This document shows positions 6,032 to 37,441 of a stretch of 64,000 nucleotides of DNA, piece by piece. The translations under genes were made by a program, and so were the position numbers. Every line of letters begins with the position of its first letter. The stretch's first letter is position 1. The notes below the pieces were generated by a model. It was not told the origin of the DNA. It made no database searches and saw only the letters and a list, made by a program, of their open reading frames with translations. The DNA comes from Deltaproteobacteria bacterium (lineage in GTDB: Bacteria; Desulfobacterota; Desulfobulbia; Desulfobulbales; SURF-16), in contig JACRCD010000025.1 of the NCBI GenBank assembly GCA_016219175.1, forward strand, positions 1 to 64,000, given 5' to 3'.

Positions 6032-7297
6032 CTACCTGTTAACCGCCCTGCCGAACGACTGACCGGCCAGGCTTCTGTCCCGCGGCTTGAAGGTGTTGTC
6101 CGCCATCTCCTTCTGCACCACCTGTTGAAACAGCTTCACCATTTTGATCTTCTGCGATTCATCCTGATAAAAGGTGTCCCAGGCATAGGCGAGCAGTTCC
6201 TGCAGCCTTTCCGGGCTCATGTGTTTGGGTTGAAACACCACCTTGTCCGCGGAAAAGTCATTCCAGTCATGGGAGAGGAGGCGATTCTGCCCGCTCAGTT
6301 CCGTATAGGCCCTGGTGTGGGGAAAGGGGGTCAGCACCGTGAATTCCGCCAGGTCAAGTTCTATCTCCAGCAGAAAATCGATTAACCGTTTGATAAAATC
6401 CTCGGTATGGGTGTCAAGTCCCAGCAGAATGGTGCCCTCTACCCCGATGCCATGATCATGGTAGCGCCTGATCCGCTCCCTGATGTAATCCGAGGTATCA
6501 AAGACAGCCTGATAGACATACCAGGCCCCGGCCCGGGCAGCCAGGTCAAGAACCTCCGGTTTGTCTTCAATGGGATGGGAGCACCATTTTTTCTTGAGCG
6601 GGATCATTTCCCGGAACAGATCCATCTCCCAATTGGTATCCTGGGCCAGGGAGTTGTCAACGAGGAAGAGTCTATTGTTATCGATGCCGGCCAGCTCTGC
6701 AATCACCTTGTCGATGGGCCGCGGCCGGAATACCCGCCCTCCCAGGTAGGAAACCGCGCACGGATAGCAGTTGAAGCGGCAGCCCCGCGAGGCGTGCACG
6801 AGATCAACCATCTGCACGCCTTTATAGTTGTACAACGTCCGGTTGAGAATATCCCGCCGCGCCGGCCCCACCAGGGCGATATCGGGCCGCTGGTCGAGGA
6901 AATCATAGCATGGCTGCAGCCTGTTCCGCGCAAAATCGGCAAAGACCTGTTCCATGCGGCCTTCGGCCTCGCCGAGAAAGACGGCATCCGCATGCTCCAT
7001 GGTTTCCCGGGCATGCAGCATGGTGGCGATACCGCCAAAGATGACCTTGATCCCTTTTTTCCGGTAGATATCGGCAATCTCCCAGCCCCGTTTGACCTGC
7101 ACGGTCAGCATCATGGAGATGCCGACAAAATCAACATCCTCATCAAAATCTAGGGGTTCCAGGTTCTCATCAACAAAGTCGACGGCAACATGGGCGGGAA
7201 GTGCGGCGGCAAAGACCACCGGACCGTGGGGCGGCAGATGAAACTCGGTCTGCCTGTCCAGCTTGGCCCATTTGGGATAGATCAGTTTAAATTTCAT
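6032..7297 (-). CDS. B12-binding-type radical SAM protein
   Basis: A 421-aa protein with an N-terminal Rossmann-like segment of the B12-binding class (residues 1-130, with VDFVGISMML and VIFGGIATML) followed by a radical SAM core with CRFNCYPC at 173-180 (CX3CX2C). The usual cobalamin-ligand DxHxxG motif is not obvious, so cobalamin binding is uncertain. Related enzymes methylate, cyclise or desaturate unactivated carbons. It sits between the AMP-ligase and the lipoprotein gene in the minus operon. A second B12-type radical SAM protein is at 27836. The substrate is probably ACP-bound or a finished chain, but this is inference. Confidence 0.8.
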   Translation of the reverse strand: MKFKLIYPKWAKLDRQTEFHLPPHGPVVFAAALPAHVAVDFVDENLEPLDFDEDVDFVGISMMLTVQVKRGWEIADIYRKKGIKVIFGGIATMLHARETMEHADAVFLGEAEGRMEQVFADFARNRLQPCYDFLDQRPDIALVGPARRDILNRTLYNYKGVQMVDLVHASRGCRFNCYPCAVSYLGGRVFRPRPIDKVIAELAGIDNNRLFLVDNSLAQDTNWEMDLFREMIPLKKKWCSHPIEDKPEVLDLAARAGAWYVYQAVFDTSDYIRERIRRYHDHGIGVEGTILLGLDTHTEDFIKRLIDFLLEIELDLAEFTVLTPFPHTRAYTELSGQNRLLSHDWNDFSADKVVFQPKHMSPERLQELLAYAWDTFYQDESQKIKMVKLFQQVVQKEMADNTFKPRDRSLAGQSFGRAVNR

Positions 7298-7305
7298 GGA
7301 AGGGG

Positions 7306-7980
7306 TTATCTGTTTAAATTTTCGGCGGTTAACAAGGTCAGCTTCAGCGTGTAGTCCGCCTGGCCGGAATCCTTCAGTTCAAGATAGGCCGGGATCGGGA
7401 TATCGTCTATTTTCCGGCATGACCGGCCGATGAGGGAGCGGTTCCCGGCCAGGGCCGGGGTGAAGGTGTTGATCCGCCAGCAGCCGGCCACTGCCGGCAT
7501 GATATCCGTTATCAGGCCATCAGCCCCGGTAAAGCGGCAAACCGGGACATGGCCGGCCAACCAGCCATAGCGCACATTATCCGTGGCGGGCGCCAGAAAG
7601 ATCATCCGCACATCGCGCATCAATCCCTCGGCAAAACCGGGCTTGTCAAACGGGGACACGGCCCGCCGGACTTCAACCGCCCCATCCCCCCGGCAAACAG
7701 CCTCAAAAAGGGTGAAGCCCTCAATGGTCAGGAGGGCGCAGCCAAACCCATCCCCGTCCAGGCTGGTAAGCCCGATAACCGTGGAGCCGGAGCCGTCCCC
7801 CAGGGAAAAATCAATGGCATGGATGAACTGCCAGCGCCCCCTGGGAAAAATCGCAACACACTCCTCGCCCACCGCTTCATCCTGGGTTGCCGTCATCTCC
7901 GGCATGGCTCGTTGTCTTTCCGCGGCACAGGCGGTAAGACAAAGGAGCAGGATGAAAAAAACGCAAACAGGGGATTTCAT
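7306..7980 (-). CDS. DUF3261-like outer-membrane lipoprotein
   Basis: A 224-aa protein with a lipoprotein signal peptide: hydrophobic FFILLLCL then lipobox LTAC near residue 18. The remainder is beta-rich and secreted. Its position directly after a LolA-like protein in an APE-like gene set, its size and its lipobox match the DUF3261 lipoproteins of aryl polyene clusters. The family name is from context more than from a clear motif. The expected role is receiving or anchoring the exported product at the outer membrane. Its start overlaps the LolA-like gene's stop by 4 bases. Confidence 0.65.
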   Translation of the reverse strand: MKSPVCVFFILLLCLTACAAERQRAMPEMTATQDEAVGEECVAIFPRGRWQFIHAIDFSLGDGSGSTVIGLTSLDGDGFGCALLTIEGFTLFEAVCRGDGAVEVRRAVSPFDKPGFAEGLMRDVRMIFLAPATDNVRYGWLAGHVPVCRFTGADGLITDIMPAVAGCWRINTFTPALAGNRSLIGRSCRKIDDIPIPAYLELKDSGQADYTLKLTLLTAENLNR

Positions 7981-8570
7981 CGGTCAATGAACAGGGCAAC
8001 AGGCATCTCCTGATTGAGGATCCTGTTGCTGAAGGTAAGCCTGGTGTAGGATTCAGGTCCCTCAAAAATAGTCACCTCGTCCAGCAGGCCCTGTTGATCC
8101 GCCAGTTTGAGCTGAATGCTGCTGATGAAGGCGGCAACCCCCTGCTCCCTGGGCGTAAGCAGGACCGTCTGTTTCTCCGGGAACGACACGTTGAACATTT
8201 CGTTGCCGGTAAAGCGTCCGCCAAGCCAATTGGCAATCTCGGCCAGCACCACCTGCATGGAGCCTGGCTGCATACCCTTGTCTTCCCGGAACTCGCCGTC
8301 CTGCTCAATATACTTTTTCACCTTGCCGTTATGCATGAGCAAAACGGAGGCCAGGGGTGATTGGTATTCCCAGCGCAGGGACTGCGGGGCCTGAAAGACA
8401 AAGGCGCCGGTGGAGATCAGGGGGCGGGCGAGGATCTTCAGGTGCTTTTCCTGAACAAAATCAGCCTGGACGGATTGCAGCCGGACAGCGGTTTGCAAAG
8501 CCGCCTCTCCGGCCCGGGACGGAGCGGGCGCCAGCAAGGAGAGAACGATAAGGAGAAAAAACAGTTTCAC
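7977..8570 (-). CDS. LolA-like periplasmic lipoprotein/lipid carrier
   Basis: A 197-aa protein with a cleavable signal peptide (LLIVLSLLAPAPSRAG) and a LolA-type half-barrel: VQADFVQEKHLKIL, then LISTGAFVFQAPQSLRWEY. APE clusters carry a dedicated LolA paralog thought to shuttle the product or lipid across the periplasm to the outer membrane. Here it is flanked by the ketoreductase and the DUF3261-like lipoprotein with a one-base or four-base overlap on each side. It is probably not the housekeeping LolA given this context. Confidence 0.85.
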   Translation of the reverse strand: MKLFFLLIVLSLLAPAPSRAGEAALQTAVRLQSVQADFVQEKHLKILARPLISTGAFVFQAPQSLRWEYQSPLASVLLMHNGKVKKYIEQDGEFREDKGMQPGSMQVVLAEIANWLGGRFTGNEMFNVSFPEKQTVLLTPREQGVAAFISSIQLKLADQQGLLDEVTIFEGPESYTRLTFSNRILNQEMPVALFIDR

Positions 8571-9307
8571 TAGAACATCCCGCCGTTGACCGATATCACC
8601 TGACCCGTGACATAGGAGGCGTCATCCGAGCAGAGAAAAGCCACCACCTTGGCCACCTCGTCAGGCCGGCCGATACGGGCCATGGGAATCATCGTCTTGA
8701 TGTGGTCCTTGGGGGCGTTTTGGATCATATCCGTCTCGATCAGGCCGGGCGCCACCACATTGACCCTGATCCCCAGGCGGGCGACCTCGGCGGCCACTGC
8801 CCTGCTGGCTGCATTCAAGCCTGCCTTGGCTGCCGAATAATTGGCCTGGCCCCGGTTGGCCATGAGTGAACTGGCCGACGAAATAGAGACAATGGCCCCC
8901 TTGCGCCTGCGCACCATCAATTCCAGCACCGGCCGGGTCATATTATAAAATCCGTGCAAACTGGTATCAATGACAGAGTGCCAGTTTTCCGGCGGCATCA
9001 TCAGGAAAAGACCGTCGGCAATAATGCCGGCGTTATTAACCAGAATGTCGATGCTCCCCAGTCTCTTGTCAATATCCGCCACCGCATCCGCCGCAGCCTG
9101 GCCATCCCTGACATCAAACCGGCAAATTTCGCCCCGGCCGCCTTCACCTTCAACCATGGCCAGGGTCTGTTCCGCGCCCTGCCTGTCCCGCAGGTAATTG
9201 ATGACGGTATAACTGCCGGACCGGGCCAATTCCACGCAGATCGCCCGGCCGATGCCCTTGCTGGCGCCCGTGATAATGGCTGTTTTGTGTTCGTTCTCCG
9301 CTGTCAT
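8570..9307 (-). CDS. FabG-like 3-oxoacyl-ACP reductase (ketoreductase)
   Basis: A 245-aa classical short-chain dehydrogenase. It has the TGASKGIG cofactor motif at residues 13-20, NNAG at 91-94, catalytic Ser144 in SISSASS, Tyr157 and Lys161 in YSAAK, and a C-terminal [11 protein letters not shown] typical of FabG. It would reduce the beta-keto group in each elongation cycle using NADPH. It overlaps the upstream dehydratase gene (9304) by 4 bases. It corresponds to the ketoreductase of APE-type clusters and is the only ketoreductase in the locus. Confidence 0.93.
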
Positions 9308-9750
9308 TGTTCGTTTGCCTGGAAAAGCTGCAAGATGGCCTGGCCGATCAGCTGATCGTTCAGATGGAGTTCACAGGACACTTCCCGCAGGTTTTCAAAA
9401 CTATAGGTATTTTCCGCCGTGCCGGTGACGATGCTGCCGAAGGGCAGGAAATCGATAAAAAAATCCGCTTTTTTTATTGCCACCAGCCAGCCCATCTGAT
9501 TCGAATCAAGGCCGTTGGTCTGTATCCTGTCCCAGCCGTTGCAGACGCCGGCGGTCTGCGCAGCCAGTTCCACCAGGATCAGGGGGTGTACGCCGTGCTC
9601 ATCCGCCATGGGCCATGATTTATCCACCACAAAGAGGGTGCGGGCCTTCCGGCTGTCGACCTCAAGAACCTCCCTGACAAACAACATGCCGTCGCGATGG
9701 GGAAGCAGGTCTTCCAGGGTGAGATCGGCGAGAGTGAGTGTGCTCATCAT
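9304..9750 (-). CDS. FabZ/ApeP-like 3-hydroxyacyl-ACP dehydratase (hotdog fold)
   Basis: A 148-aa hotdog protein with the FabA/Z-type opening [14 protein letters not shown] and the central helix [15 protein letters not shown] carrying the expected acidic residue. Such proteins in APE clusters dehydrate 3-hydroxyacyl-ACP. It is the first gene of the nine-gene minus operon, with an ATG doublet at the start (9750 or 9747). It overlaps the ketoreductase gene by 4 bases, so the reduction-dehydration pair is made together. It is distinct from the second hotdog dehydratase at 14850 and the PKS-type one at 20597. Confidence 0.85.
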
Positions 9751-10047: not shown

Positions 10048-10314
10048 ATGAGCAAACTTATACAAGAACTTAAGGTCAAAATAATTGACATCCTGAATCT
10101 TCAAGATCTAACCCCTGAAAATTTTAACGAAAACGCCCAACTGGTCGGGGGCGATCTCGGCATTGACTCGATAGATGTATTAGAAATGGTTGTCATGGTT
10201 GAAAAAGACTACGGAGTCGTCATCAACAGCCAGGAAGTCGGGGAAAAGGTCTTTTCCTCCCTTTCGTCCCTCGCGGCATACATTGAGGGCAACTCGTCCG
10301 GTTCCCCATCTTGA
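10048..10314 (+). CDS. acyl carrier protein 1
   Basis: An 88-aa four-helix carrier with the phosphopantetheine attachment motif GIDSIDVLE near residues 38-46 and an acidic helix II (EMVVMVEKDYG). It carries the growing chain for the KS/CLF encoded immediately downstream, whose TTG start overlaps its stop codon by 4 bases (TTGA). It is one of four ACPs in the locus, and the only one adjacent to the KS-CLF fusion. Confidence 0.93.
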   Translation: MSKLIQELKVKIIDILNLQDLTPENFNENAQLVGGDLGIDSIDVLEMVVMVEKDYGVVINSQEVGEKVFSSLSSLAAYIEGNSSGSPS

Positions 10315-12482
10315 TCAGCAAACGGGTTTACATTGCCGGGGCCGGTATCATCAGTCCGCTGGGCAAGGGACTCGCCGCAACAGAAGAGGCCTTGCGCCGT
10401 AACCGTTCGTCAATACGACCGCTGGATCTTTTCCCTCTGCTGCAGGGAGAACCTTTGCCGGTGGGCCAGGTCGACGGAATGGAAGCGCCGCCGTCTCCGC
10501 CGAGAACGCACTTGCTGGCGCATGCCGCCGCGCTTCAGGCCATGGCGGAATGTGAGCAGCCGCCGGACGCGGTCATCATCGGCACCACCACCGGCGGCAT
10601 TCTGACTACTGAGCAGCTGCTCCGGGACAGTGCGGACAACAAGGAATTGTACCGCTATCACGGCTTAAACAGTGTTACCGAGTATATTGCCCGGGAGACC
10701 GGTTGCCGCGGGACGGCTCTCACTGTCTCCACCGCCTGTTCATCTGGTGCGGTGGCCATTGCCCTGGCCCTGGAAATGCTGCGCCAAGGCAAGGCGAAAA
10801 GAGTTCTTGCCGGTGGCGTGGATTCCCTCTGCCGGCTGACCTATTTCGGTTTTCATTCCCTACAGCTGGTGGACCGGAAGGGCTGCAGACCCCTTGACGC
10901 GGACCGGCAGGGCATGGCAGTTGCCGAAGGCGCGGCTCTGCTGCTGCTCACCACGGAAAAGCCGGACAAACCCCTGGCGGAGCTCCTTGGCGCCGGTCTT
11001 TCCTGCGACGCCTATCACCCGGCGGCCCCCCATCCGGAGGGCCGCGGCGCTTTCCTGGCAATGCAGGCGGCGCTTGCTGATGCCGGTCTTGTCCCCGCGG
11101 ATATCGACTACATCAATCTCCACGGCACCGGCACCCCGGAAAACGATCTGGCCGAGTCCAAAGCCGTCACGGCCCTTTTTACCGCGCCGCCCATGCTCTC
11201 CTCCATCAAAGGCGCAACGGGCCACAGCCTGGCGGCTTCAGGAGCAATTGAGGCGGTGGTGTCGGCAATCGCTGTTGCCAAAAATTTCCTGCCGGCCAAC
11301 ACCGGTTGGATCAAGGCGGATCCCGCCCTTGGCCTGACCCCCTTGACCCAGCCGGCCACGCAGCGCACCAATGCCGTGCTCAGCAACTCCTTTGGGTTTG
11401 GCGGCAACAACGGCTGCCTGGTGATCACCAAACCGGAAAATTTTTCCTCGCCCCCGGCCCCGGCGCCAGTAAGCACGGGGCTGGCAATTCACGGCTGTTC
11501 CTGTCTCACCGGCGCCGGAAATACCGCGGCCACTCTAGCCCTGCTGGCCCAGGGCGTACCTGTCGCCGGGAAGGCGGATCTTGGCGGTATCTCGGAAAAC
11601 CTGCCGCCACACCTGGTGCGCCGCCTGAAACGGCTGCCGCGCATGACCTTGTCACTGGCCCTTGCCGCCCACCAAGATTCCGCCCTTGAGGGAAAACCAT
11701 CATCCGTATATATGGGAACCGGCTGGGGCGCTCTTTCGGAAACCTATGATTTCCTGAGCCGCCTCACCGATTCCAGAGAACAGTTTCCGAGTCCCACCGA
11801 TTTTGTCGGCTCCGTTCATAACGGGCCCGCCGGCCAAGCAGCGATCATGCTGGGGGCAAGCCGGGCCAATATTACAACCAGTGGCGGAGATTACTCCTTT
11901 GAACAGGCACTGCTTGCGGCAGACCTTCTGATGCCAGAGGGGGACGAAAGCTGCCTGGTCCTCGGGGTGGATGAGGGCCACCAGGTGCTGTCCCCCCTGC
12001 TCGATTCTTCCATTGCCTCCGGATCTTTTTTAGCCGATGGCGGCGGGGCCTTTTGTCTGAGCAGAAAAAGAGAGGGCGCGCAATGTCTTGCCCGCCTTCC
12101 TTTTTATCAGAGCAGCGCCACGGAGGGGTGTATCAATTCGCTGATAGACGCCCTCGGTGGGGCCCGGACCGGCAAAGACAAGTATGCGCTCCTGCTGGCG
12201 GGGATCCCCGCGGCAGTTAAGGAAGAGGGCGAAAGGCAGCTGGCGCGCTTCATGGAACAATTTGGCTTAAGGGTCCCTGTCATCCGCTACCGCGAATTTA
12301 CCGGTGAGTTTGCCTCGGCCTCGGCCGTGGCCGCGGTCATGGCTGTTTCCTTTCTTGCCTCCGGGGAGGCGCCCGGGCCGCTTGTGACAGGAGAGGCCCT
12401 GGCGCTGGCGAATAATAAAAAGGGCGTTTTGGTGCTTGGCCTGGGACGATATCTTTCCGCCATGGAATTCTTCCGCCCATGA
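10311..12482 (+). CDS. fused ketosynthase - chain-length-factor-like protein (KS-CLF)
   Basis: A 723-aa protein, about twice a normal KS. Residues 1-385 are a full KAS with Cys143 (TACSSG), His271 (NLHGTGT) and His305 (GATGHS) and a C-terminal NSFGFGGNNG. Residues about 395-723 are a second thiolase-fold half in which the nucleophile region reads TTSGGDYSFEQ and no catalytic Cys or His pair is visible, as in chain-length factors or the short KS-like protein of APE clusters, which pairs with the active KS. It would elongate an ACP-bound chain and set its length. Start is TTG at 10311 overlapping the ACP stop. A MITE insertion lies 73 bases after its stop. Confidence 0.85.
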   Translation: MISKRVYIAGAGIISPLGKGLAATEEALRRNRSSIRPLDLFPLLQGEPLPVGQVDGMEAPPSPPRTHLLAHAAALQAMAECEQPPDAVIIGTTTGGILTTEQLLRDSADNKELYRYHGLNSVTEYIARETGCRGTALTVSTACSSGAVAIALALEMLRQGKAKRVLAGGVDSLCRLTYFGFHSLQLVDRKGCRPLDADRQGMAVAEGAALLLLTTEKPDKPLAELLGAGLSCDAYHPAAPHPEGRGAFLAMQAALADAGLVPADIDYINLHGTGTPENDLAESKAVTALFTAPPMLSSIKGATGHSLAASGAIEAVVSAIAVAKNFLPANTGWIKADPALGLTPLTQPATQRTNAVLSNSFGFGGNNGCLVITKPENFSSPPAPAPVSTGLAIHGCSCLTGAGNTAATLALLAQGVPVAGKADLGGISENLPPHLVRRLKRLPRMTLSLALAAHQDSALEGKPSSVYMGTGWGALSETYDFLSRLTDSREQFPSPTDFVGSVHNGPAGQAAIMLGASRANITTSGGDYSFEQALLAADLLMPEGDESCLVLGVDEGHQVLSPLLDSSIASGSFLADGGGAFCLSRKREGAQCLARLPFYQSSATEGCINSLIDALGGARTGKDKYALLLAGIPAAVKEEGERQLARFMEQFGLRVPVIRYREFTGEFASASAVAAVMAVSFLASGEAPGPLVTGEALALANNKKGVLVLGLGRYLSAMEFFRP

Positions 12483-12555: not shown

Positions 12556-12720
12556 TTGATGAACTCGTAAAAAGTCGGCGACAAAGCCCGGATGGCTAAG
12601 TAACAAAATTCGATATACAAGGCGTAGTGTATTTTTGAGAGTGAGGCTATACATGTGGTATGTCGAACGAACAAAAATGCGCTACAACGCAGTAGATCGG
12701 ATTTTTTACGACGCCATCAA
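12556..12720. repeat. MITE-like element, copy 2 (complete, 165 bp)
   Basis: Bounded by imperfect terminal inverted repeats: left TTGATGAACTCGTAAAAAGT and right (reverse complement) TTGATGGCGTCGTAAAAAAT, with about 17 of 21 positions matching. It is near-identical to 1-141. It has no ORF of its own, although a GTG-initiated frame from 12655 reads through into the methyltransferase. No clear target-site duplication was seen. Confidence 0.85.
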
Positions 12721-12732
12721 TACTTGAGAGAT

Positions 12733-13479: not shown

Positions 13480-13519
13480 GAATCTGGCGTACCTCCGGAA
13501 ATCCATGTTTGTAACCTGG

Positions 13520-13583
13520 TTGATGAATCCGTAAAAACCCGGAGACAATGCCAGGTGGCCAAGTAGCAAAATTCTCTATACAA
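13520..13583. repeat. MITE-like element, copy 3 (diverged left-end fragment)
   Basis: Begins TTGATGAATCCGTAAAAACC and aligns with the left 64 bases of copy 2 with scattered mismatches. It is lost after CTATACAA. It sits 40 bases after the methyltransferase stop, so this gene is bracketed by copies. Confidence 0.7.
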
Positions 13584-13619
13584 CCGAGCTGTGCTGAACC
13601 GTTCTTGCGGGGAAATTGA

Positions 13620-14849: not shown

Positions 14850-15212
14850 TTGTGGTATTCAATCGAACTGATAAATACGGATGAAAATGGGATGGCCGCG
14901 CGGGTAACAGCGGACAGCAGCTCTCCCTGGTTTTCCGGTCACTTTCCGGATGACCCGATTCTGCCGGGGATTGCCCAGCTCAAAATGGTTGCGGATCTCA
15001 TAGCGGCCTCCAGGAAAGATGACTCCCGCATGACGGGATTAAGCCGCATCAAATTCAGAAAAATCGTCAGACCAGGCCAGCAGCTTGATATTTACGCCGC
15101 ACCCGGTAAGCTGAAGGGTCAGTATGCCTTCCGGATTTCAAGCAGCAACGAGGATATCTGCTCAGGCATGATGTTTTTTGCCCAAAAAGATAACAAAACA
15201 GCGAATTTATGA
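14850..15212 (+). CDS. FabZ/ApeI-like hotdog dehydratase
   Basis: A 120-aa hotdog protein with the FabA/Z active-site strand SGHFPDDPILPG and helix IAQLKMVADLI. Compared with FabZ the catalytic acidic residue in the helix is not evident (Q or K at that place), so it may be a thioester dehydratase variant or non-catalytic partner. Start is taken as TTG at 14850 with GGACGGGA upstream; an internal ATG at 14892 is less likely because it would cut the fold. It overlaps the following ACP by 4 bases. Confidence 0.75.
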   Translation: MWYSIELINTDENGMAARVTADSSSPWFSGHFPDDPILPGIAQLKMVADLIAASRKDDSRMTGLSRIKFRKIVRPGQQLDIYAAPGKLKGQYAFRISSSNEDICSGMMFFAQKDNKTANL

Positions 15213-15475
15213 CCACCGACATTAACCAGACCATCACCCAAATCACTGAAATCATCATCAACGAGCTCAAGCTTGAGGATGTTACCCCCCAGACCTTTGA
15301 CCCCGACCTGGATCTGGTGGACGAGGTGGGCATTGACTCCATGGACCTGGCCACCATTGCCCTCGTGCTGCGCGATGTGTACGGCATCCGGATTGAAGAG
15401 GATGATTATCCCAAGCTTACCACCGTGCGCATCATTGCAGAGTATATCGACAACAAGCTTACCAGTGGCGAATAA
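15209..15475 (+). CDS. acyl carrier protein 2
   Basis: An 88-aa carrier with the phosphopantetheine site GIDSMDLAT and acidic helices (LDLVDEV, IEEDDY). It overlaps the upstream dehydratase by 4 bases and abuts the GTG start of a radical SAM gene with no gap. This tight arrangement suggests that its acyl chain is the substrate of the dehydratase and perhaps of the two radical SAM proteins that follow. Confidence 0.92.
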   Translation: MTTDINQTITQITEIIINELKLEDVTPQTFDPDLDLVDEVGIDSMDLATIALVLRDVYGIRIEEDDYPKLTTVRIIAEYIDNKLTSGE

Positions 15476-16531
15476 GTGACCGCGCAAGCACAGGAATATA
15501 AATTTTCCGAAATCATGGCGGAACCGCGTATCAGAAAACGGTTTGAAAAGGTGCGGAGATATTTCTTTCTCCGTGAATCCACCTATGACATGACCAACCG
15601 GTGCAATATCCGCTGCGAAGGCTGCTATTATTTTACCGGCGAAAAACAGTTTGCCGCTGAAAATAATGACCTGGAAGACTGGCGGCAGCTCCTGGAGTCT
15701 GAAAAAAAAAGGGGCATCACCTTTGTCGTGCTGGCCGGGGCCGAGCCATCACTGGTGCCGCGGTTGTGTGAAGCCTGCTATCGGGTGATTCCCCTGGGCG
15801 CCATTGCCACCAATGGCCTGAAGACAATCCCCCGGGAGATTGACTACCGGATTCATGTCTCGGTCTGGGGTAATGACCGGACCAGCCTTGCCATCAGAAA
15901 GGCCCCGGACATGCTGGCCCGGCAAATGGCGAACTACAGGGATGACCCCAGGGCCGTTTTTGTTTACACATTCACCCCGGTAAACATCGAGGAGGCCCGG
16001 GAAGTGACGGAACTGCTGGCCGCCAACGGCATGAAAATCACCTTCAACATGTTCTCAGCCCCGGTCGGCTATAGCGGTTATCTCCGCCACACCCCGCAAA
16101 CCCTTGCCAGAACAGAGCAGGTCATGGCCGAACTGCTGGCGGAATTCCCGGCAACCGTTCTCTTTTCCCCTTACAATATCGTTGCCCATACCCGGCAACA
16201 GGGGTTGCATGAACTTTTTTCCTGTTCCTATCCGCGCATGAACCCCTCAACGTCTATCGGCCTTGGCAGATCTTTTCGCCAATACCGCACCGATCTGCGC
16301 TGGGACCGCGATGCCGCCTGCTGTGTTCCGGATACCGATTGTACCGATTGCCGCCATTATGCCGCCGGCAGCGCCGTGGTTACGGCCAGGATGTACCGTC
16401 ACGCCACTGACCCGGCAACATTCTCCGCCTGGCTGGATTATGTTGACACCTATCTGGCTGTCTGGGTCAGAGGATATGAAAAGGAGCCCAATCTCCATGA
16501 TGCGCCGGTTGCTCCGCCCCCCAATAATTAG
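15476..16531 (+). CDS. radical SAM protein A of a paralogous pair
   Basis: A 351-aa radical SAM enzyme with CNIRCEGC (C43, C47, C50), the second motif LAGAEPSLVP and the segment AIATNGLKTIP. A C-terminal Cys-rich stretch (CCVPDTDCTDC) suggests an auxiliary Fe-S cluster. Start is GTG directly after the ACP stop. It shares overall architecture with the next gene (16549): the same YDxTxRCN opening, ATNGL and xVSxWG segments, and C-terminal cluster. The chemistry (C-C bond formation, dehydrogenation, isomerisation) cannot be read from sequence. Its placement beside an ACP points to an acyl-ACP or carrier-bound substrate. Confidence 0.85.
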   Translation: MTAQAQEYKFSEIMAEPRIRKRFEKVRRYFFLRESTYDMTNRCNIRCEGCYYFTGEKQFAAENNDLEDWRQLLESEKKRGITFVVLAGAEPSLVPRLCEACYRVIPLGAIATNGLKTIPREIDYRIHVSVWGNDRTSLAIRKAPDMLARQMANYRDDPRAVFVYTFTPVNIEEAREVTELLAANGMKITFNMFSAPVGYSGYLRHTPQTLARTEQVMAELLAEFPATVLFSPYNIVAHTRQQGLHELFSCSYPRMNPSTSIGLGRSFRQYRTDLRWDRDAACCVPDTDCTDCRHYAAGSAVVTARMYRHATDPATFSAWLDYVDTYLAVWVRGYEKEPNLHDAPVAPPPNN

Positions 16532-16548
16532 TTACTTCCCGTGAGACC

Positions 16549-17547
16549 ATGATAACCGTCAGTTCTCTGCTCGATGATCACTGGTATGAGCGTTACAGGA
16601 AAATTTCCAAGCTCAATATCCGCAGCTCCATCTATGATGTTACCGACCGCTGCAACCTCCGCTGCAAGGGCTGCTTCTTCTTTTCCTCGGGCGAGCACGA
16701 GGCCGCCTCGGAGGAAAAGGACCTGGGCAAGTGGCATGTCTTTGTCGAAAACGAGATGGCCCGCGGGGTGAATCTGGCCATCCTGATCGGCGGCGAGCCC
16801 ACTCTCTGCCTGGACCGGATCGAGGCCTTTTACAAACGGCTGCCCACCTTCTGCGCCACCAATGGCCTGATTAAAGTACCCCGGGACCGGTTCCCCGATA
16901 TGATGGTCGGCCTCTCCCTGTGGGGAGATGAGAAGGATGAAAAAATTCTGCGCGGCCAGGACACCTTCAAGATCTCCAGCGCCAACTACGAGGGTGATCC
17001 CCACGCCTACTATCTTTACACCATTACCCCGAAACAGCTGGGCAAGACAGAAAAAATCATCAAAAAGATTACGGATGTCGGCCTGAAGGTTCACATGCAG
17101 CTCCTGTCAAATGACGAGGGGGTGGACGGTTTTTCCTGGAAGCCGGATGAGCTTGTGGCCGTCAGGGCGGAAATGGATGACATGCTGGATAAGTACCCCC
17201 GGACGGTGATTTCCTCCAAATATTACCACGAGATCATCACCACGGGGGTAATGCTGGGCCGGAGTTTCGGCTGGATGGAATGCCCATCGGTTACGGAACC
17301 CATCGATAAAAGATCCCCCCGCCCCAAACGGCTGACCAACTTTATCCGCTGGGCATCCGACCTGCGGACCATGCACCGGTGCTGCACTTCGGAAACCCGC
17401 GATTGCTCCACCTGCAAAGACGGCGCCGCCCACATGAGCTGGGTCATGGTCAACAAACGGGCCCATATCAAGACCACTGAGGATTTGCGGAACTGGATAG
17501 AAGTTTACGAGATGTTTGCCAAACTTTACCAGTTCATCCCCTGGTAA
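16549..17547 (+). CDS. radical SAM protein B of a paralogous pair
   Basis: A 332-aa radical SAM enzyme with CNLRCKGC (C35, C39, C42), LIGGEPTLCLD, CATNGLIKVP and GLSLWGDEKDE segments. A C-terminal CCTSETRDCSTC stretch mirrors the auxiliary cluster of the neighbour at 15476. Protein A and B are clearly paralogs, so the pair could be a heterodimer or catalyse successive steps. It is followed by two ketosynthases in the same direction with short gaps. Confidence 0.85.
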   Translation: MITVSSLLDDHWYERYRKISKLNIRSSIYDVTDRCNLRCKGCFFFSSGEHEAASEEKDLGKWHVFVENEMARGVNLAILIGGEPTLCLDRIEAFYKRLPTFCATNGLIKVPRDRFPDMMVGLSLWGDEKDEKILRGQDTFKISSANYEGDPHAYYLYTITPKQLGKTEKIIKKITDVGLKVHMQLLSNDEGVDGFSWKPDELVAVRAEMDDMLDKYPRTVISSKYYHEIITTGVMLGRSFGWMECPSVTEPIDKRSPRPKRLTNFIRWASDLRTMHRCCTSETRDCSTCKDGAAHMSWVMVNKRAHIKTTEDLRNWIEVYEMFAKLYQFIPW

Positions 17548-17570: not shown

Positions 17571-18821
17571 ATGAGCCTGAAAGACGCGGTCATTGTCGGC
17601 TATGATGCCATTTCCCCGCTGGGTCATGATTTGCAAAAACAGTGGGAGCGAGCCCTGGCCGGGCAAAGCGGCATCGGCCCCCTGACCCGTTTTCCCCTGG
17701 GCGCTGACTTTCCAGTGCGGATTGCCGGTCAGGTTCCCGCCATTGATGATGCCGGCTACCCCTTCCTTTCCGCCAGACACCAGGCGGCGTGGAGTTCTCC
17801 CGTCTTTAAGTACTCCATGCTCTCGGTTGCCAGGGCTCTTGAACGAAGCCGGATCGAGATAACCCCGGACATAGCGGGCCGGGTGGCGGTGACATACAGC
17901 TCCGCCATCGGCGGTCTGGATGCGGTTTTAACCGCGGATCGAAACTTACGGGCCGGCAACAGACTGCCCCATCCCTATGCAAATCCCAACTCCTGCATCA
18001 ACATGATCGGCGGCAAAATCGCCATCCAGACCGGGGCCCGGGGGCCGATTACCTCCACCATCTCCGCCTGCGCTACCGGCCTGACCTCGATAATAATCGG
18101 CGCCATGTTTCTGGCCTTAAACAGGGCTGATATGGTCATCTGCGGCGCGGTGGATTTTCCCCTGGTTGAACCGATTGTGGCCGGTTTCCACACCATGAAC
18201 GGGGTGTATATCCCCAAAAAGGGAAGAGAAAAAGAGCCCCCGTCCGAAGCCAGCCGACCATTTTCCGCGGACCGGCGCGGCTTTGTTCTCTCCGAAGGGG
18301 CCGGCGCAGTGATCCTGACCACCAGGGAATTTGCCGATGCGCATGGCCTGCGCTATAATTGTCAACTTGCCGGGTGGGGCATGACTTCCGATGCCCACCA
18401 CTTTGTGGCCCCATATTTTGAAACAGTCAGACAGTGCATGCTGGACGCCTTGGCGGATGCCGCTATTGCCCCGGAGGATATTGCCGCAGTCAACGCCCAT
18501 GCCGCCTCAACCAGGGTCGGCGACAAGGTGGAATATGATGCCTTGCAATCGGTCTTTCGTGATGCGCTGCCGCCGGTCTGCGCCAACAAATCACTGATCG
18601 GCCACGCCATGGGCGCCTCCAGCATTCTTGAAACGATTTTTGCCCTGCAGGGAATGCAGGATGACATGGTGCCGCCCACCATCAATTACACCCCTGATCC
18701 TGAAATCGACCTTGATTGCGTGGCCGAAGGAAAACGTGCGTTGAACCAGGAATATGTCCTGAAAAACGCCTTTGGTTTCGGGGGCTGCAATAGTTGCGCG
18801 GTATTCAAGAGAACCAGCTGA
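17571..18821 (+). CDS. beta-ketoacyl-ACP synthase (FabF/KASII type) with altered His loop
   Basis: A 416-aa ketosynthase with Cys167 (ISACATGL), His310 and His345 (LIGHAMGA) and the C-terminal NAFGFGGCNS. The first His loop reads NAHAAST rather than the usual NAHGTST, a Gly-to-Ala change next to the catalytic His that may shape chain or substrate specificity. It lies directly after the radical SAM pair and 34 bases before a second full ketosynthase, implying two condensing enzymes with different jobs (for example priming and extension). Confidence 0.9.
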   Translation: MSLKDAVIVGYDAISPLGHDLQKQWERALAGQSGIGPLTRFPLGADFPVRIAGQVPAIDDAGYPFLSARHQAAWSSPVFKYSMLSVARALERSRIEITPDIAGRVAVTYSSAIGGLDAVLTADRNLRAGNRLPHPYANPNSCINMIGGKIAIQTGARGPITSTISACATGLTSIIIGAMFLALNRADMVICGAVDFPLVEPIVAGFHTMNGVYIPKKGREKEPPSEASRPFSADRRGFVLSEGAGAVILTTREFADAHGLRYNCQLAGWGMTSDAHHFVAPYFETVRQCMLDALADAAIAPEDIAAVNAHAASTRVGDKVEYDALQSVFRDALPPVCANKSLIGHAMGASSILETIFALQGMQDDMVPPTINYTPDPEIDLDCVAEGKRALNQEYVLKNAFGFGGCNSCAVFKRTS

Positions 18822-18855: not shown

Positions 18856-20121
18856 ATGAAAGCTCCCCTGAACAGAAAGGTATTTGTCGTTGGTTATGGC
18901 GCGGCCACGGCCCTTGGCAAAACATTCGCGGCAACCTGGGACGCCGCCGTGTCCGGCCGGGCCGGTTTTCGCAAGATAACCAGGTGCGAAGTCACCACCC
19001 GCAGCAACGTGGTGGGCGAGATCCCGGACTGGAATCCGGGCAGCCTCGACTTCGTGACGCGAAAAGAGGCCTCTCTCTGGGACGCGGCCTATGTCTTTCT
19101 CACCATGGAGGTATGCCGGGCGGCTCTTGCCCATGCGGGACTGCCGATCAACAACGAGACCGGCCCCAGAACAGGGTGCCTGATCGGGTCGGCCCTCAAC
19201 GGGACCGACGCCTATCGGATTGCCATGGATAACTATGTCAACAGGGGGCCCTTAAGGATCAGTCCCTATCTCCTGCCCAATCTCTGCGCCAATCTTCCCG
19301 CGGGCAAGGCCGGCATGCTCCTGGGATTCTCCGGGCCCATCTTTTCGCCGCAGGGCGCCTGCGCTTCGGGGAATCACGCCATTGCCCTCGGGGCCAGGAT
19401 GATCCGGGACGGCGATTGCGATTTTGTCCTGGCCGGAGGTGTTGAAACCTGCCTTGTGCCTGAAATCATTCATGGCTTTGCCAACATGCTCGCCACCATC
19501 AAAGTCGGTCCCAAGGATCGCGCCGCGGCCGATCCCACCCAGGCCTCAAGACCGTTCAGCGTTGACCGGAAGGGATTTGTCCTCTCCGAAGGCGCCGGGG
19601 TCCTGGTTCTGGGGGCCGAGGAAGCCGTCCGCTCCTGGGGGCTGGCGCCAAAGGCGGAGGTCGCGGGCATTGGCTGGAATTCCGACGCCCACCATTTTAC
19701 CCGCCCGAATCAGGAGACCATTGCCCGGGCCATCCATAAGGCCATTGATGACGCCGCGATCTCTCCCCGTGATATCGGCGCGATCAACGCTCACGGCACC
19801 TCAACAGCCACTGGGGACAGCACCGAGGTTGATTGTCTGCGGACCATCTTTGGCCGCCACCTGCCCCGGGTTCCCTTGTCGGCAAACAAGTCCCAGATCG
19901 GCCACAGCCTTGGCGCATCCGCCGCCATTGAGGCGGCGCTGGCCATTGAGGCCATGAACAAAGGGATCGTCCTGCCCACGGTCAACCATGTCCCGGACCC
20001 CAAGTTCTTCGACCTTGATGTGGTTCCCAATCAAGCCCGCAAACACGCGCATGAGTTTGTGCTCTCCAACTCCTTCGGTTTTGGCGGCACCAACTGCTGT
20101 ATTGTTTTTCGAGGAATGTGA
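18856..20121 (+). CDS. beta-ketoacyl-ACP synthase (FabF/KASII type)
   Basis: A 421-aa complete ketosynthase: Cys169 in GACASG, His313 in NAHGTST, His350 in QIGHSLGAS and the C-terminal NSFGFGGTN. All three catalytic residues are present. The stop overlaps the thioesterase start (TGATG). It is clearly homologous to the upstream ketosynthase (SRPFS-D-R-GFVLSEGAG, SDAHHF segments shared), so the tandem pair probably arose by duplication. Confidence 0.92.
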   Translation: MKAPLNRKVFVVGYGAATALGKTFAATWDAAVSGRAGFRKITRCEVTTRSNVVGEIPDWNPGSLDFVTRKEASLWDAAYVFLTMEVCRAALAHAGLPINNETGPRTGCLIGSALNGTDAYRIAMDNYVNRGPLRISPYLLPNLCANLPAGKAGMLLGFSGPIFSPQGACASGNHAIALGARMIRDGDCDFVLAGGVETCLVPEIIHGFANMLATIKVGPKDRAAADPTQASRPFSVDRKGFVLSEGAGVLVLGAEEAVRSWGLAPKAEVAGIGWNSDAHHFTRPNQETIARAIHKAIDDAAISPRDIGAINAHGTSTATGDSTEVDCLRTIFGRHLPRVPLSANKSQIGHSLGASAAIEAALAIEAMNKGIVLPTVNHVPDPKFFDLDVVPNQARKHAHEFVLSNSFGFGGTNCCIVFRGM

Positions 20122-20600
20122 TGCGACCAAAACCATTTATTCCGGAATTTCTGAACAAGCCCTCTTTTGTCAAGGATAAGAACAGCGGCTGTATCTGGCA
20201 CCGCTGCGAGCTGCGCACCCTCTATGTGGACACGGACCGTTCCCAGGTTGTCTATCATGCCAACTATCTGCGATATTTTGAATTCGGCAGGGCGTCACTC
20301 ATGCGGGAACTTTCCTATCCCTATAAAAAAATAGAGGAAAGCGGTTATATCTATCCCATTATTCAGACAGAACTCAACTATTACTCGCCGCTTTTCTATG
20401 ACGATCTGATGTACATTCATACCCGGCCGGCCAGCCTGCAGTTGGTTAAACTGCAGTTTGATTACCTGATCACCAAGGCCGAAAACGGCGAGATCGCCTG
20501 CACCGGTTTTACCAAACATTGCGCGGTGAACACCAAAGGCATCCCGGTTGAGATCGATGCCAAGACCATCCGGCTCTGGCAGGAATTTCCCGGGTCATGA
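20121..20600 (+). CDS. 4-hydroxybenzoyl-CoA thioesterase-like hotdog thioesterase
   Basis: A 159-aa hotdog thioesterase with the YbgC/4HBT motif TLYVDTDRSQVVYHANYLRYFE, which carries the catalytic Asp, and a downstream ASLMRELSYPY helix. It would release the chain as a free acid or edit mis-primed ACPs, matching the thioesterase of APE clusters. The ATG at 20121 overlaps the ketosynthase TGA; a GTG three bases upstream is an alternative. Its stop overlaps the next gene by 4 bases. A free-acid product would also make sense of the FakAB-like and AMP-ligase activation enzymes. Confidence 0.85.
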   Translation: MRPKPFIPEFLNKPSFVKDKNSGCIWHRCELRTLYVDTDRSQVVYHANYLRYFEFGRASLMRELSYPYKKIEESGYIYPIIQTELNYYSPLFYDDLMYIHTRPASLQLVKLQFDYLITKAENGEIACTGFTKHCAVNTKGIPVEIDAKTIRLWQEFPGS

Positions 20601-21448
20601 CCACCTGGCAGACTTCTGTTGCCGTTACGGTCAAGCCCTGGTTCGCCGACCACTGCTTTAACGGCAAAGTCGTACTGCCGGCCGTTGAAAGCATGAGCCT
20701 GCTCGCCTCGGAGATGGCCGGGCATCACCCTGAAATCGACATCCGGGTCATGGAGAATGTCCGCTTTAACAAATTCCTTGAGATTCCGGGGGGAAGCACC
20801 AGGGTGGCTGCCCTGATTGAATACCGAAGGAATGAGAACGGCTCCATCCACGGCAAACTGCTCAGCCGTGCACGGCTCAGCGTGGGGACCAGGCTGAAGG
20901 AACATGGCGAGATCCTCTTTTCACCGGCCTCGCCAGCAGGCAAATTCAGTGCCGGGAAACTTCCGGGTTCTCCGTCCGGTCCCTTGACAAGGATCAGGGC
21001 GGAAGAGATATACCGGGACCTGGTGCCTTTTGGTCCCGCCTATCATACCCTGCGGGACACGCTGTTTCTTGGCGAAGAGGAGGCCTGGGGAAAGCTGCAA
21101 GCCCCGGCCCTGCCCGCGACGGATGGTGTCCGGGCCCTCATCGGTTCACCCTTTCCCCTGGACGGCGCCTTCCACGCCGCCTGTGTGCTCGGCCAGCGGC
21201 ATGCGGACTTCGTCCCCTTTCCGGTGGGGTTTGCCCGGCGCCTGATAACAAAAGCCACGCAACCAGGCGGCAGCTATCTTACCAGGGTGGAATTAGTATC
21301 CCGGCTAGAGGACGAACTGGTCTTTAATCTGAATATCCTTGACGACCAGGGAGAAGTGTACGAGGCTGTAAGCGGCTTACGGATGCGGGATGTCAGCGGG
21401 GGAAGAATCAAACCGCCGGCCTGGATCAAGACCAGAACCGCGCACTGA
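20597..21448 (+). CDS. stand-alone PKS-type double-hotdog dehydratase
   Basis: A 283-aa protein resembling the DH domain of modular polyketide synthases: an N-terminal FADHCFNGKVVLPAVE motif (HxxxGxxxxP type) and a C-terminal half with PFGPAYHTL and LDGAFHAACV (catalytic Asp region). As a discrete protein it is unusual beside two FabZ-like dehydratases. It may act on branched or aromatic-primed chains, or isomerise double bonds. Coupled to the thioesterase by overlap. It is the last gene before the short minus-strand membrane gene. Confidence 0.8.
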   Translation: MTTWQTSVAVTVKPWFADHCFNGKVVLPAVESMSLLASEMAGHHPEIDIRVMENVRFNKFLEIPGGSTRVAALIEYRRNENGSIHGKLLSRARLSVGTRLKEHGEILFSPASPAGKFSAGKLPGSPSGPLTRIRAEEIYRDLVPFGPAYHTLRDTLFLGEEEAWGKLQAPALPATDGVRALIGSPFPLDGAFHAACVLGQRHADFVPFPVGFARRLITKATQPGGSYLTRVELVSRLEDELVFNLNILDDQGEVYEAVSGLRMRDVSGGRIKPPAWIKTRTAH

Positions 21449-22735: not shown

Positions 22736-25700
22736 ATGCTCAATTACCGTCTGCTGCTCATCGTCAGCTTCCTGATTGCCTGTTGCACCGCGCTGGGATT
22801 CCTGCGCCTTGACATCGACACGGATGTGGTGCGTTCGTTGCCGGCCGGCGACCGGGTTATCGCCGATGGCCTGGAAATTTTCAACCAGCATCCCATCCAT
22901 GATCAGGTTGCGGTGGACATCATGATCAACCGTGATGATCCGGATACCCTGGTGGAATGCGGCGCCTTTCTTGCCCAGCAGATGAAGGACAGCGGCCTCT
23001 TTGTCCGGGTCGGCAGCGACTCCATGGCTGAGCTCATGCCGCGTCTTGCCTTGCACGTGGCCGGGAACCTGCCTTTTTTGTTTTCCCCCAGGGATCTCGA
23101 GGATGTCGCCCTGCGGCTGGACCGTGACCAGATCAATGAGCGCGTCCATAAACTCCATGGGGATCTCGGCAGCCTGGACGGGATGGGCCAGGCTGAGTTC
23201 ATCGGCCTCGACCCCCTGGGTCTCAAAGACGCGATCCTGGCGAAAATGGCCCTGCTGGCCCCCTCCCCGAATGCCCGATTTTACAAAGGGAGCTTGCTCT
23301 CGGCGGATGGCCGGCATCTGCTGGTCACGGCCAGACCGCTTGCCGCGGGAAGCAATACCGCCTCTGCCGGCAGGATCTCCGAACTGTTTTCAGCAACAGC
23401 CCGGGAACTGGCAAAACATTATGAAGCCAGGGATGTGCAGGTAACCCTGACGCCGGTGGGGGCTTACCGGGCGGCCCTTGATAATGAGCGGATCATCCGC
23501 CATGACGTGCAGCTGGCCAATATGCTGGCCATCATTGGTATTTCCGTGCTGCTGCTCTTCTCTTTTTCCCGGCCGCTGATCGGCCTCATTTCCCTGCTGC
23601 CGGCCATTGCCGGCACAGCCGCCGCCCTGCTTGTTTATTCCCTGTTCCACCCATCCATCTCCATTATCACGCTCGGCTTTGGGGGGGCCGTCATATCCAT
23701 CACCGTTGATCACGGGATCGCCTATCTGCTCTTTCTTGACCGCCCTCGGGAAACAACAGGCAAGGAGGCCGCGCATGAGGTGAAGTCTCTCGGTCTCATG
23801 AGTGTGATCACGACGATTGTCGCCTTTCTCATCCTCAGCGGCAGCGGGTTTCCCATTTTTGCCGAACTGGGGGTGTTTACGGCCCTGGGCATCCTCTTTT
23901 CCTTTCTCTTCGTGCACACTCTTTTCCCGAAAATTATTCCGGTTATGCCGGCTGGCCGTGACTGTTCCCGGCCTTTGCAAAAAATCGTCAATATGTTGTA
24001 CAACACCGGCAAACCGGGCGCGGCCTTCGCCATTCTGCTGGCCATTACCCTGGTATTTTTCGCGAAACCCCAGTTTTACGTCAGCCTGAGCAGCATGAAC
24101 ACGGTCAGCCAGGAAACCGAGGCAGCTGACGCCCTGTTTACCGAGGTCTGGGGGAAAACCGGCGATCGCATCATTCTGCTGGATGCAGCTGAAACGATTG
24201 CCGCGATCCAGCAAAATAATGATCGCGCCCTCGGCCTGCTTGAAGAGGATGTGGAGCAGGAGATCCTGAGCGCGGCCTTTACCCCGTCCATGATCTTTCC
24301 GGGGAGCGCAAGGGCGGCCCGGAATCTGGCGGCCTGGCAGGCTTTCTGGGACAAGGACCGGAGAGAAGAGGTAAAAAAGGCGCTCAACGCCGCAGGAATC
24401 GCCCTTGGTTTCACCCCCGAGGCCTTCGCCCCCTTTTACGCACTGCTCGATCCCGCCATGACGGTAAAGCCAGACGACATTCCTGAAGAATACTACGAAT
24501 TGCTGGGTATTACCGAGAGCAAAAACAAGCCGGGCTTGCTCCAGTTCAGCACCGTTGCTCCGGGTAAAAATTATGATGCCGCTCGTTTTATGGCCCGTTA
24601 CGGCGGGGAGAGCAAAATTTTTGATGCCCGCTTTTTCACCAGGCGGCTGGCCGACCTCCTGTTTTCAACCTTTGCCGCCATGCTGGGGATCATTGCCGTC
24701 AGCGTGGCGCTGCTTCTCTATTTCGTCACCCTGAGCCTGCCGCTGACATTTCTCAGCCTGCTGCCCTCTCTGTTCTCCTATATCTGCACCCTGGGGACCT
24801 TGAACCTCATCAATCATCCCCTGGATATCCCAGCCCTGATGTTATCCATCGTCATTCTCGGCTTGAGCGACGATTATGCCTTTTTTTGCGTGCGTGCCCA
24901 CCAACGCTATCGCCATACCGGCCACCCGTCTTACGACCAGGTCCGCGGTTCCGTCTTTCTGGCCGGCGCCTCGACCCTGATCGGCTTCGGCGTCCTCTGT
25001 TTTGCCGACCACAGCCTGTTGCGCAGCATCGGCATCACCTCTTTTTTAGGCATCGCTTACTCCCTGCTCGGCACTTTCCTGCTGCTGCCGCCGCTGCTGA
25101 ATGTGTACTTTGCCCGGCAAACGCTAAAGGAAAGCCGCGCACCGCACGATCTTCCCCGGCGGGTCAACAGCCGTTACCGCACCTTTGAAGCCTACCCCAG
25201 GATGTTCGCCCGCTATAAACTGCGCTTTGATCCCATGTTTGCGGATCTGCCGCGGATGCTCGCCGCCAGAACAGAGGTGAAAACCATTGTGGACATCGGC
25301 TGCGGTTACGGCGTTCCTGCCAGTTGGTGCCTGGAATACTATCCGGAGGCCCGAGTCGCCGCCCTTGAGCCAGACCGGGAGCGGGTCAGGATTGCCCGCC
25401 TTGCCTTTGGCAAACGAGGAACCGTCACCCAGGGCTGGGCCCCTGATCTGCCTCCTCTGCCGGATGGTCCGGCAGACCTTGTTCTGCTGCTGGACATGCT
25501 CCATTATGTGGATGACGGGATTGCCGCGGCTATTTTTAATAAAAGCTTTCAGATTCTTGGCAGCGGGGGAGTTGTGGCGATGAGATTTACCATCCGCCCC
25601 GCCGGCCGCCGGTCGTTCTCCTGGCTGCTGGAGAATGTTCGGATAAAAGCCTTGGGCCAGCGGGCCTGGTACCGCTCCCGCGACAAGATGTCCGCACTCC

Positions 25701-25792
25701 TGGAACAAGCCGGTTTTGTGCTCCTCGTCAATGAAGTGACCGCCGCCAACCCCGAGCTGGCCTGGATGGTCGGCCGGGCGGAAAAAAGGTAG
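22736..25792 (+). CDS. MMPL/RND-type exporter fused to a C-terminal SAM methyltransferase
   Basis: A 1018-aa fusion. Residues 1 to about 800 form an MMPL/RND-like exporter: an N-terminal transmembrane helix, a periplasmic loop to about 260, a membrane bundle (LANMLAIIGISVLLLFS, SIISVITTIVAFLIL), a second loop and a second bundle (LGLSDDYAFFCVR, LIGFGVLCFADHS). Residues about 805-1018 are a class I methyltransferase with VDIGCGYGVP (852-861) and LLLDMLHYVDD. APE clusters carry MMPL exporters, but a methyltransferase joined to the cytoplasmic tail is unusual. It could modify the cargo as it enters the pump. No frameshift is seen at the junction. Confidence 0.85.
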   Translation: MLNYRLLLIVSFLIACCTALGFLRLDIDTDVVRSLPAGDRVIADGLEIFNQHPIHDQVAVDIMINRDDPDTLVECGAFLAQQMKDSGLFVRVGSDSMAELMPRLALHVAGNLPFLFSPRDLEDVALRLDRDQINERVHKLHGDLGSLDGMGQAEFIGLDPLGLKDAILAKMALLAPSPNARFYKGSLLSADGRHLLVTARPLAAGSNTASAGRISELFSATARELAKHYEARDVQVTLTPVGAYRAALDNERIIRHDVQLANMLAIIGISVLLLFSFSRPLIGLISLLPAIAGTAAALLVYSLFHPSISIITLGFGGAVISITVDHGIAYLLFLDRPRETTGKEAAHEVKSLGLMSVITTIVAFLILSGSGFPIFAELGVFTALGILFSFLFVHTLFPKIIPVMPAGRDCSRPLQKIVNMLYNTGKPGAAFAILLAITLVFFAKPQFYVSLSSMNTVSQETEAADALFTEVWGKTGDRIILLDAAETIAAIQQNNDRALGLLEEDVEQEILSAAFTPSMIFPGSARAARNLAAWQAFWDKDRREEVKKALNAAGIALGFTPEAFAPFYALLDPAMTVKPDDIPEEYYELLGITESKNKPGLLQFSTVAPGKNYDAARFMARYGGESKIFDARFFTRRLADLLFSTFAAMLGIIAVSVALLLYFVTLSLPLTFLSLLPSLFSYICTLGTLNLINHPLDIPALMLSIVILGLSDDYAFFCVRAHQRYRHTGHPSYDQVRGSVFLAGASTLIGFGVLCFADHSLLRSIGITSFLGIAYSLLGTFLLLPPLLNVYFARQTLKESRAPHDLPRRVNSRYRTFEAYPRMFARYKLRFDPMFADLPRMLAARTEVKTIVDIGCGYGVPASWCLEYYPEARVAALEPDRERVRIARLAFGKRGTVTQGWAPDLPPLPDGPADLVLLLDMLHYVDDGIAAAIFNKSFQILGSGGVVAMRFTIRPAGRRSFSWLLENVRIKALGQRAWYRSRDKMSALLEQAGFVLLVNEVTAANPELAWMVGRAEKR

Positions 25793-27832: not shown

Positions 27833-27835
27833 TTC

Positions 27836-35369: not shown

Positions 35370-35406
35370 GGTTTTTAGTATTGTTCCTGGTCTTGAAAGA
35401 GGATTC

Positions 35407-36159: not shown

Positions 36160-36171
36160 GCCGGAAAGGAA

Positions 36172-37422: not shown

Positions 37423-37441
37423 GGGATTTTTGCTGAGGGGA

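Follow-up and report, generated by a model that had tools for sequence, protein, structure and literature searches.

A near-invariant pair of radical SAM proteins encoded behind an acyl carrier protein in a polyene-type gene cluster

Two described systems place radical SAM enzymes on a carrier-bound chain. LipS2 and then LipS1 act in turn on one such chain, first octanoyl and then 8-mercaptooctanoyl (PMC9585515), and the Jaw5-type cyclopropanases of jawsamycin and fuelimycin are radical SAM enzymes that act on an ACP-bound polyketide (PMC13389473). Candidate ladderane-type clusters from anammox bacteria and Desulfotalea psychrophila, which combine FASII/PKS genes with several radical SAM genes (Rattray 2009, PMC2649909), give a third point of reference. 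Here we describe a locus from a Deltaproteobacteria bacterium (Desulfobacterota; Desulfobulbales) in which an acyl carrier protein (ACP) gene is followed by genes for two radical SAM proteins, A and B. The window, by which we mean the whole stretch of DNA analysed, comprises 64,000 nucleotides of contig JACRCD010000025.1, and all window coordinates refer to it.

The ACP–A–B genes and their surroundings

The ACP gene in question (ACP2; 15209..15475, + strand) matches PF00550 at 35.9 bits (cut-off, 20.8) and carries a GIDSMDL site with DSM as the phosphopantetheine site. Its TAA directly abuts the GTG start of A (15476..16531, +; 351 aa), and 17 bases separate A from B (16549..17547, +; 332 aa); the open reading frame coordinates thus confirm the ACP and two radical SAM genes, spaced 0 and 17 bases apart, that a first-pass annotation of this DNA had reported. 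The gene for a FabA/ApeI-like hotdog dehydratase (DH2; 14850..15212, +), which scores above the cut-off of PF07977 (27.8 bits against 23) and below that of the ApeI-like model (25.8 against 28.5), overlaps the ACP2 start by 4 bases, and the ketosynthase gene KS3 begins 23 bases 3' of B. This overlap and the short gap before KS3 indicate that the stretch is a single, tightly packed unit.

A matches PF04055 at 30.8 bits, above the cut-off of 29.5; B matches it at 21.0 bits, below the cut-off, with a complete CxxxCxxC motif. The two proteins are 30% identical over 316 columns of a pairwise alignment (E 9e-46) and do share motifs, as had been claimed: both retain CxxxCxxC (C43-C47-C50 in A, C35-C39-C42 in B), GxEP and a C-terminal CC-x6-CxxC, the C-terminal cysteines being C250/C282/C283/C289/C292 in A and C245/C278/C279/C286/C289 in B. 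CxxxCxxC and the CC-x6-CxxC set are invariant across 28 family members, and CxxxCxxC and the C-terminal cysteines are also invariant in 22 homologues each of A and B, over which mean column identity is 77% and 88%, respectively. Structure models reached a pLDDT of 82.6 and pTM of 0.86 for A, and 86.3 and 0.88 for B, whose model has a radical SAM fold. A fold search with the B model returned SkfB, SuiB, BlsE, viperin, anSME and GDGT-MAS (Z 14–18), and the predicted fold is that of the MoaA/Twitch/SPASM side of the superfamily. By motif and fold alike, A and B are members of the radical SAM superfamily. The solved structures nearest in sequence, SkfB and SuiB, are peptide-modifying enzymes; the fold itself is uninformative on substrate. 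Neither protein matches the SPASM domain PF13186, although the radical SAM protein rSAM_C of the window does. The C-terminal CC-x6-CxxC and a fifth cysteine are likely to form a putative auxiliary cluster site; this region is the lowest-confidence part of both models, and the Fe–S cluster content of A and B, which we infer, is likewise putative.

Judged by gene content, the cluster that has DH–ACP–A–B–KS–KS–TE–PSDH as its core is a type II PKS cluster, aryl-polyene/dialkylresorcinol-like and related to the ladderane type. Downstream of B on the same strand lie KS3 (17571..18821, +; ISACATG active-site Cys) and KS4 (18856..20121, +; GACASG active-site Cys), both with NCBIfam FabF-type matches, a YbgC/FadM-type thioesterase (TE; 20118..20600, +; TIGR00051, 83.6 bits, cut-off 68.7), a stand-alone polyketide-synthase-type dehydratase (PSDH; 20597..21448, +; PF14765, 40.7, cut-off 23.7) and an MMPL exporter fused to a methyltransferase domain (22736..25792, +; PF03176 and PF13489). 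Beyond these, a StlD/DarB-family ketosynthase adjoins an HpnR-like B12 radical SAM protein (26675..29134, −); this ketosynthase exceeds the cut-off of the StlD/DarB model NF005293 (534.8 against 450) and falls below that of the specific resorcinol_DarB model NF053539 (428.6 against 550). On the other side of the module lie a second ACP (ACP1) with a fused ketosynthase/chain-length-factor-like protein (10048..12482, +), found in 21–22 of the 29 related loci of at least 18.5 kb (hereafter, large loci); a LolA-like carrier, FabG reductase and ApeP-like dehydratase (7977..9750, −; PF03548, and PF22817 at 33.3, cut-off 27); a B12-binding radical SAM protein (6032..7297, −; PF02310, 36.6, cut-off 32.1), present in 16/29 large loci; and an AMP-forming ligase (4661..6019, −) whose best NCBIfam match, below cut-off, is 4-coumarate-CoA ligase. 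The window cluster also holds acyltransferases and several ACPs.

By gene content alone, then, the aryl polyene set is present: ApeP-like and FabA-like proteins above cut-off, FabG, a KS/CLF-like fusion, ACPs and a ligase. An aromatic ammonia lyase gene adjoins a related cluster (L164, genome G530), which fits an aryl starter, and the gene content of the cluster points to a polyene lipid, aryl or alkyl, as the probable product.

The window has further features of its own. A methyltransferase and a U32-peptidase-like protein (12655-14798) occupy the position where most sister loci hold a TIGR04072 B12 radical SAM gene, named 'rSAM_ladder_B12' in NCBIfam and with a homologue in 22/29 large sister loci; the source genome has no TIGR04072 match above cut-off, and of the six sister loci that have U32, five show no TIGR04072 match over 35% identity within their limited flanks. 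This pattern suggests that the U32-peptidase-like pair replaced the TIGR04072 gene. Beside the AMP ligase, a fusion of FakA-like (DAK2) and DegV/FakB-like parts (2955-4664, −) is possibly a one-protein fatty acid kinase. A second ACP–ketosynthase–acyltransferase–radical SAM/SPASM set lies at 34299-37732, and its radical SAM protein has 45–46% identical homologues in two anammox-type ladderane loci (L211 and L212).

Conservation of the triple and ancestry of its radical SAM genes

A scan of genome contigs returned 267 relatives, the best 80 of which were kept; with the loci from the relatives search included, this gave 92 loci with A, some of whose genomes overlap. ACP, A and B stand together in 87 of these 92, and each of the remaining five is without one partner: in two, A lacks B and the contig ends after A (L050, L085), in one the ACP is absent at a contig start (L093) and in two B is found elsewhere in the genome, on a separate contig (L113, L078). 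Among the best 80 relatives kept, the genes are collinear on one strand in 74/74 complete genome-contig loci, with an ACP–A gap of 0 bases in 36 of the 74 and a median A–B gap of 20, an arrangement that is not one of chance. All 29 large loci contain ACP2, A, B, KS3, KS4, TE and PSDH, and 28 contain DH2. At the level of sampled genomes, B accompanies A in each of the 39 that have A: 28 of 395 Desulfobacterota, 9 of 198 Spirochaetota, and one each of 392 Planctomycetota and 398 Pseudomonadota (Thiorhodococcus). Co-occurrence of the triple across genomes, the check put forward in the first-pass annotation, is therefore near-invariant, and its fixity across loci and genome samples argues that selection maintains the triple as a genuine module.

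In the tree, Thiorhodococcus is placed next to Desulfobulbus for A and B alike, as would be expected had the module been transferred as a unit. Two genomes have the operon split between A and B and still hold both genes, and in one case KS3 and a DUF1207 gene separate A from B; judged from gene content and order, the two are needed together and their adjacency is dispensable. Elsewhere, a copy of B occurs without A, with an ACP 3 bases upstream of it (L165:8727-10043) and KS5, ACP4 and phytoene-desaturase-like genes nearby; the same genome (G536) also holds a full ACP–A–B set (L190).

In a maximum-likelihood tree, B joins a lineage from lipoate operons and A the remaining single-copy members (support 100/99). 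An AU test rejects an exclusive A+B clade (p 0.0025), and pairwise bit scores agree (B–lipoate lineage, 202; A–B, 146; A–lipoate lineage, 131). These results make a strong case, though given the long branches not a final one, against a local tandem duplication and for a split of A and B into two old lineages. The word 'paralogous', applied to the pair in the first-pass annotation, holds in that the proteins are homologous, but they appear to be neither local duplicates nor close paralogues.

The sister lineage of B is a single-copy radical SAM gene directly downstream of lipS1-lipS2 in 4/4 Planctomycetota genomes, in the order lipoate ligase, lipS1, lipS2, family member, with a second ligase and a DsrE-like gene nearby; three of these genomes also have GcvH/LbpA-like, hdrC and hdrB genes further on within the stretch read. 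The LipS1 neighbour scores 234 against an NCBIfam cut-off of 230, and the LipS2 neighbour is a clear match at 201, below the cut-off of 270. These third radical SAM genes of lipoate/Hdr-like operons lie at L159:9066-10163(−), L160:9581-10738(+), L161:5081-6196(+) and L162:9132-10220(−). In the passages covered, the published account of lipS1-lipS2 operons names lipT, lipX and lipY, and a further radical SAM gene is absent from it.

The remaining single-copy members have P450/methyltransferase or MBOAT genes for neighbours, or stand alone (gene identities here are by eye). In Pseudomonadota, two stand by cytochrome-P450-like genes and a methyltransferase (L187:7498-8622, L188:4919-6034) and one by an MBOAT-like gene (L186:9182-10336). 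The single homologues L163, L184, L185 and L186–L188 have no recognised carrier protein beside them. Single homologues with peptide substrates, which had been named in advance as a sign against an ACP-bound substrate, were not seen: no RiPP or peptide-maturation setting was recognised around the single-copy homologues, whose neighbours are lipS1/lipS2, P450/methyltransferase genes or nothing recognisable.

Proposed role of A and B

We propose that A and B belong to a single uncharacterised radical SAM family, as non-redundant members that diverged anciently, and that their most likely role is to modify an acyl or polyene intermediate on ACP2 in an anaerobic type II PKS pathway, a reading that we hold with rather more confidence than doubt. 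Four observations point to an ACP2-tethered substrate: the adjacency of ACP and A, the invariant company of ACP, KS, TE and PSDH genes, the ACP retained by the B copy that lacks A, and the place of the sister lineage of B in an operon for carrier-bound octanoate/lipoate. The adjacency, on the other hand, may merely reflect operon packing in a PKS cluster, and the single homologues that lie apart from a recognised carrier protein, like the peptide-modifying enzymes nearest in sequence among solved structures, also count against this reading. From this context we infer both ACP2 as the putative substrate carrier and the order of steps. KS3/KS4, FabG and the dehydratases would assemble the chain on ACP2; A and B would each reductively cleave SAM at the [4Fe-4S] cluster of CxxxCxxC, giving a 5'-deoxyadenosyl radical, with the C-terminal auxiliary cluster either passing electrons or serving as a reagent. 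Candidate reactions are sulfur insertion, oxidation, cyclisation and coupling. The pair, which may or may not form the heterodimer suggested in the first-pass annotation, would probably act in successive steps, as LipS2 and then LipS1 do on carrier-bound octanoate, before the thioesterase frees the product. A bolder and considerably less probable version makes A and B a two-component radical SAM system of a previously undescribed family, carrying out a lipoyl-synthase-like or ring- or C–C-forming reaction in successive steps on an ACP-bound type II polyketide chain, with the B lineage also supplying a third radical SAM enzyme to LipS1/LipS2 lipoate synthesis.

The alternative that survives best, although we think it unlikely, is that A and/or B make or modify a starter or head group, such as an aromatic acid or amino acid, before loading, the ACP being a mere operon neighbour. 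The 4-coumarate-CoA-ligase-like AMP ligase and the aromatic ammonia lyase of G530 make aryl starter chemistry likely, and several related radical SAM enzymes use small molecules, BlsE and viperin being among the closest folds. Against this, A and B directly follow the ACP and are in every large locus, whereas the AMP ligase is in 8/29 (a flank-limited count); the B-only locus keeps its ACP, and the sister clade of B sits in a lipoate operon. Less probable still is action after release, on the finished polyene or resorcinol lipid at the membrane, for example a C–C coupling or ring closure like that of GDGT-MAS/Tes. GDGT-MAS is indeed among both the fold and the profile matches, and lipid export and acylation genes are present in the cluster; however, the sequence match to GDGT-MAS is restricted to the radical SAM core, and the link to ACP, KS, TE and PSDH genes (29/29) is tighter than that to MMPL (20/29), LolA (18/29) or acyltransferases (2–3/29), the latter counts being limited by locus length. 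Modification of a protein, be it the ACP polypeptide or an unlinked peptide, is very improbable and a RiPP maturase identity is rejected: the best solved relatives are peptide maturases such as SkfB, SuiB and anSME, but gaps of 0, 17 and 23 bases leave no space for a precursor open reading frame, neither protein reaches a RiPP NCBIfam model, and no RiPP genes were recognised at single-homologue loci.

If A and B do work on acyl-ACP2, as we favour, they would represent conserved, cross-phylum, paired radical SAM chemistry within type II polyketide/fatty-acid synthesis, encoded in a cluster akin to the unsolved ladderane clusters. The question then comes down to a single ACP and two enzymes, for which there are cultivated hosts such as Desulfofustis glycolicus, Allochromatium palmeri and Thiorhodococcus mannitoliphagus.

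Comparison with known systems

SkfB, SuiB, BlsE and anSME, on the Twitch/SPASM side, share the core fold and CxxxCxxC with A and B, which differ in having no SPASM Pfam match, a distinct C-terminal CC-x6-CxxC and no peptide substrate in sight. With aryl polyene and flexirubin-type (APE plus dialkylresorcinol) clusters, the window cluster has in common ApeP-like and FabA/ApeI-like dehydratases, KS/CLF, FabG, ACPs, LolA, an AMP ligase, MMPL and a DarB-family KS; it is set apart by its five radical SAM enzymes. To our knowledge, the A/B module is absent from described clusters of this type. Within the literature covered on radical SAM enzymes with aryl polyenes, dialkylresorcinols or ladderanes, and on aryl polyenes in Desulfobulb- taxa, where subscription papers and preprints are mostly outside coverage, the pair is undescribed.

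Ladderane-type clusters resemble it in joining FASII/PKS genes with several radical SAM enzymes. Two loci (L211, L212), assigned to the anammox type on their ligase, phytoene-desaturase-like, MMPL and divergent KS genes following PMC2649909, have homologues of rSAM_C (45–46%) and TIGR04072 (34–35%), MMPL and the deacetylase (PDA) in common with A/B-type clusters. A ladderane-cluster identity for A and B is rejected because these loci share all four and lack A and B. Among 21 sampled Planctomycetota above the TIGR04072 cut-off, only one (G058) has A/B orthologues. The combination of TIGR04072 with a phytoene-desaturase-like oxidase, which marks ladderane-type clusters, was not found: the source genome has no TIGR04072 match above cut-off, and no phytoene desaturase was recognised in the window cluster.

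The first-pass annotation had judged radical chemistry on a carrier-bound acyl chain to be novel or rare. Rare it is, but LipA, LipS1/LipS2 (PMC9585515) and the Jaw5-type enzymes (PMC13389473) are precedents, and these temper the claim of novelty. Novelty appears to lie in the family itself, in its constant association as a pair with a single ACP across a widespread polyene/lipid cluster of anaerobes, and in the LipS1/LipS2 operon link. Jaw5-type enzymes differ in being HemN-like, with Cx7CxxC (as printed in PMC13389473), and in serving an iterative multidomain PKS of Streptomyces, whereas A and B are on the MoaA/SPASM side. The LipS1/LipS2 proteins of the sLpl(AB)-LipS1/S2 pathway differ in their carrier, a lipoyl domain rather than an ACP, and in sulfur insertion, which is a LipS feature and for A and B one candidate reaction among several; A and B match neither LipS model (NF053742, NF053743) at E 0.01, and membership of that system is rejected on this ground. 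They nevertheless resemble A and B in being paired radical SAM enzymes with a carrier-bound chain, putative in the case of A and B, and the sister lineage of B is encoded right behind lipS1-lipS2, so that the A/B family also points to an unassigned third radical SAM gene in operons for lipoate synthesis by LipS1/LipS2.
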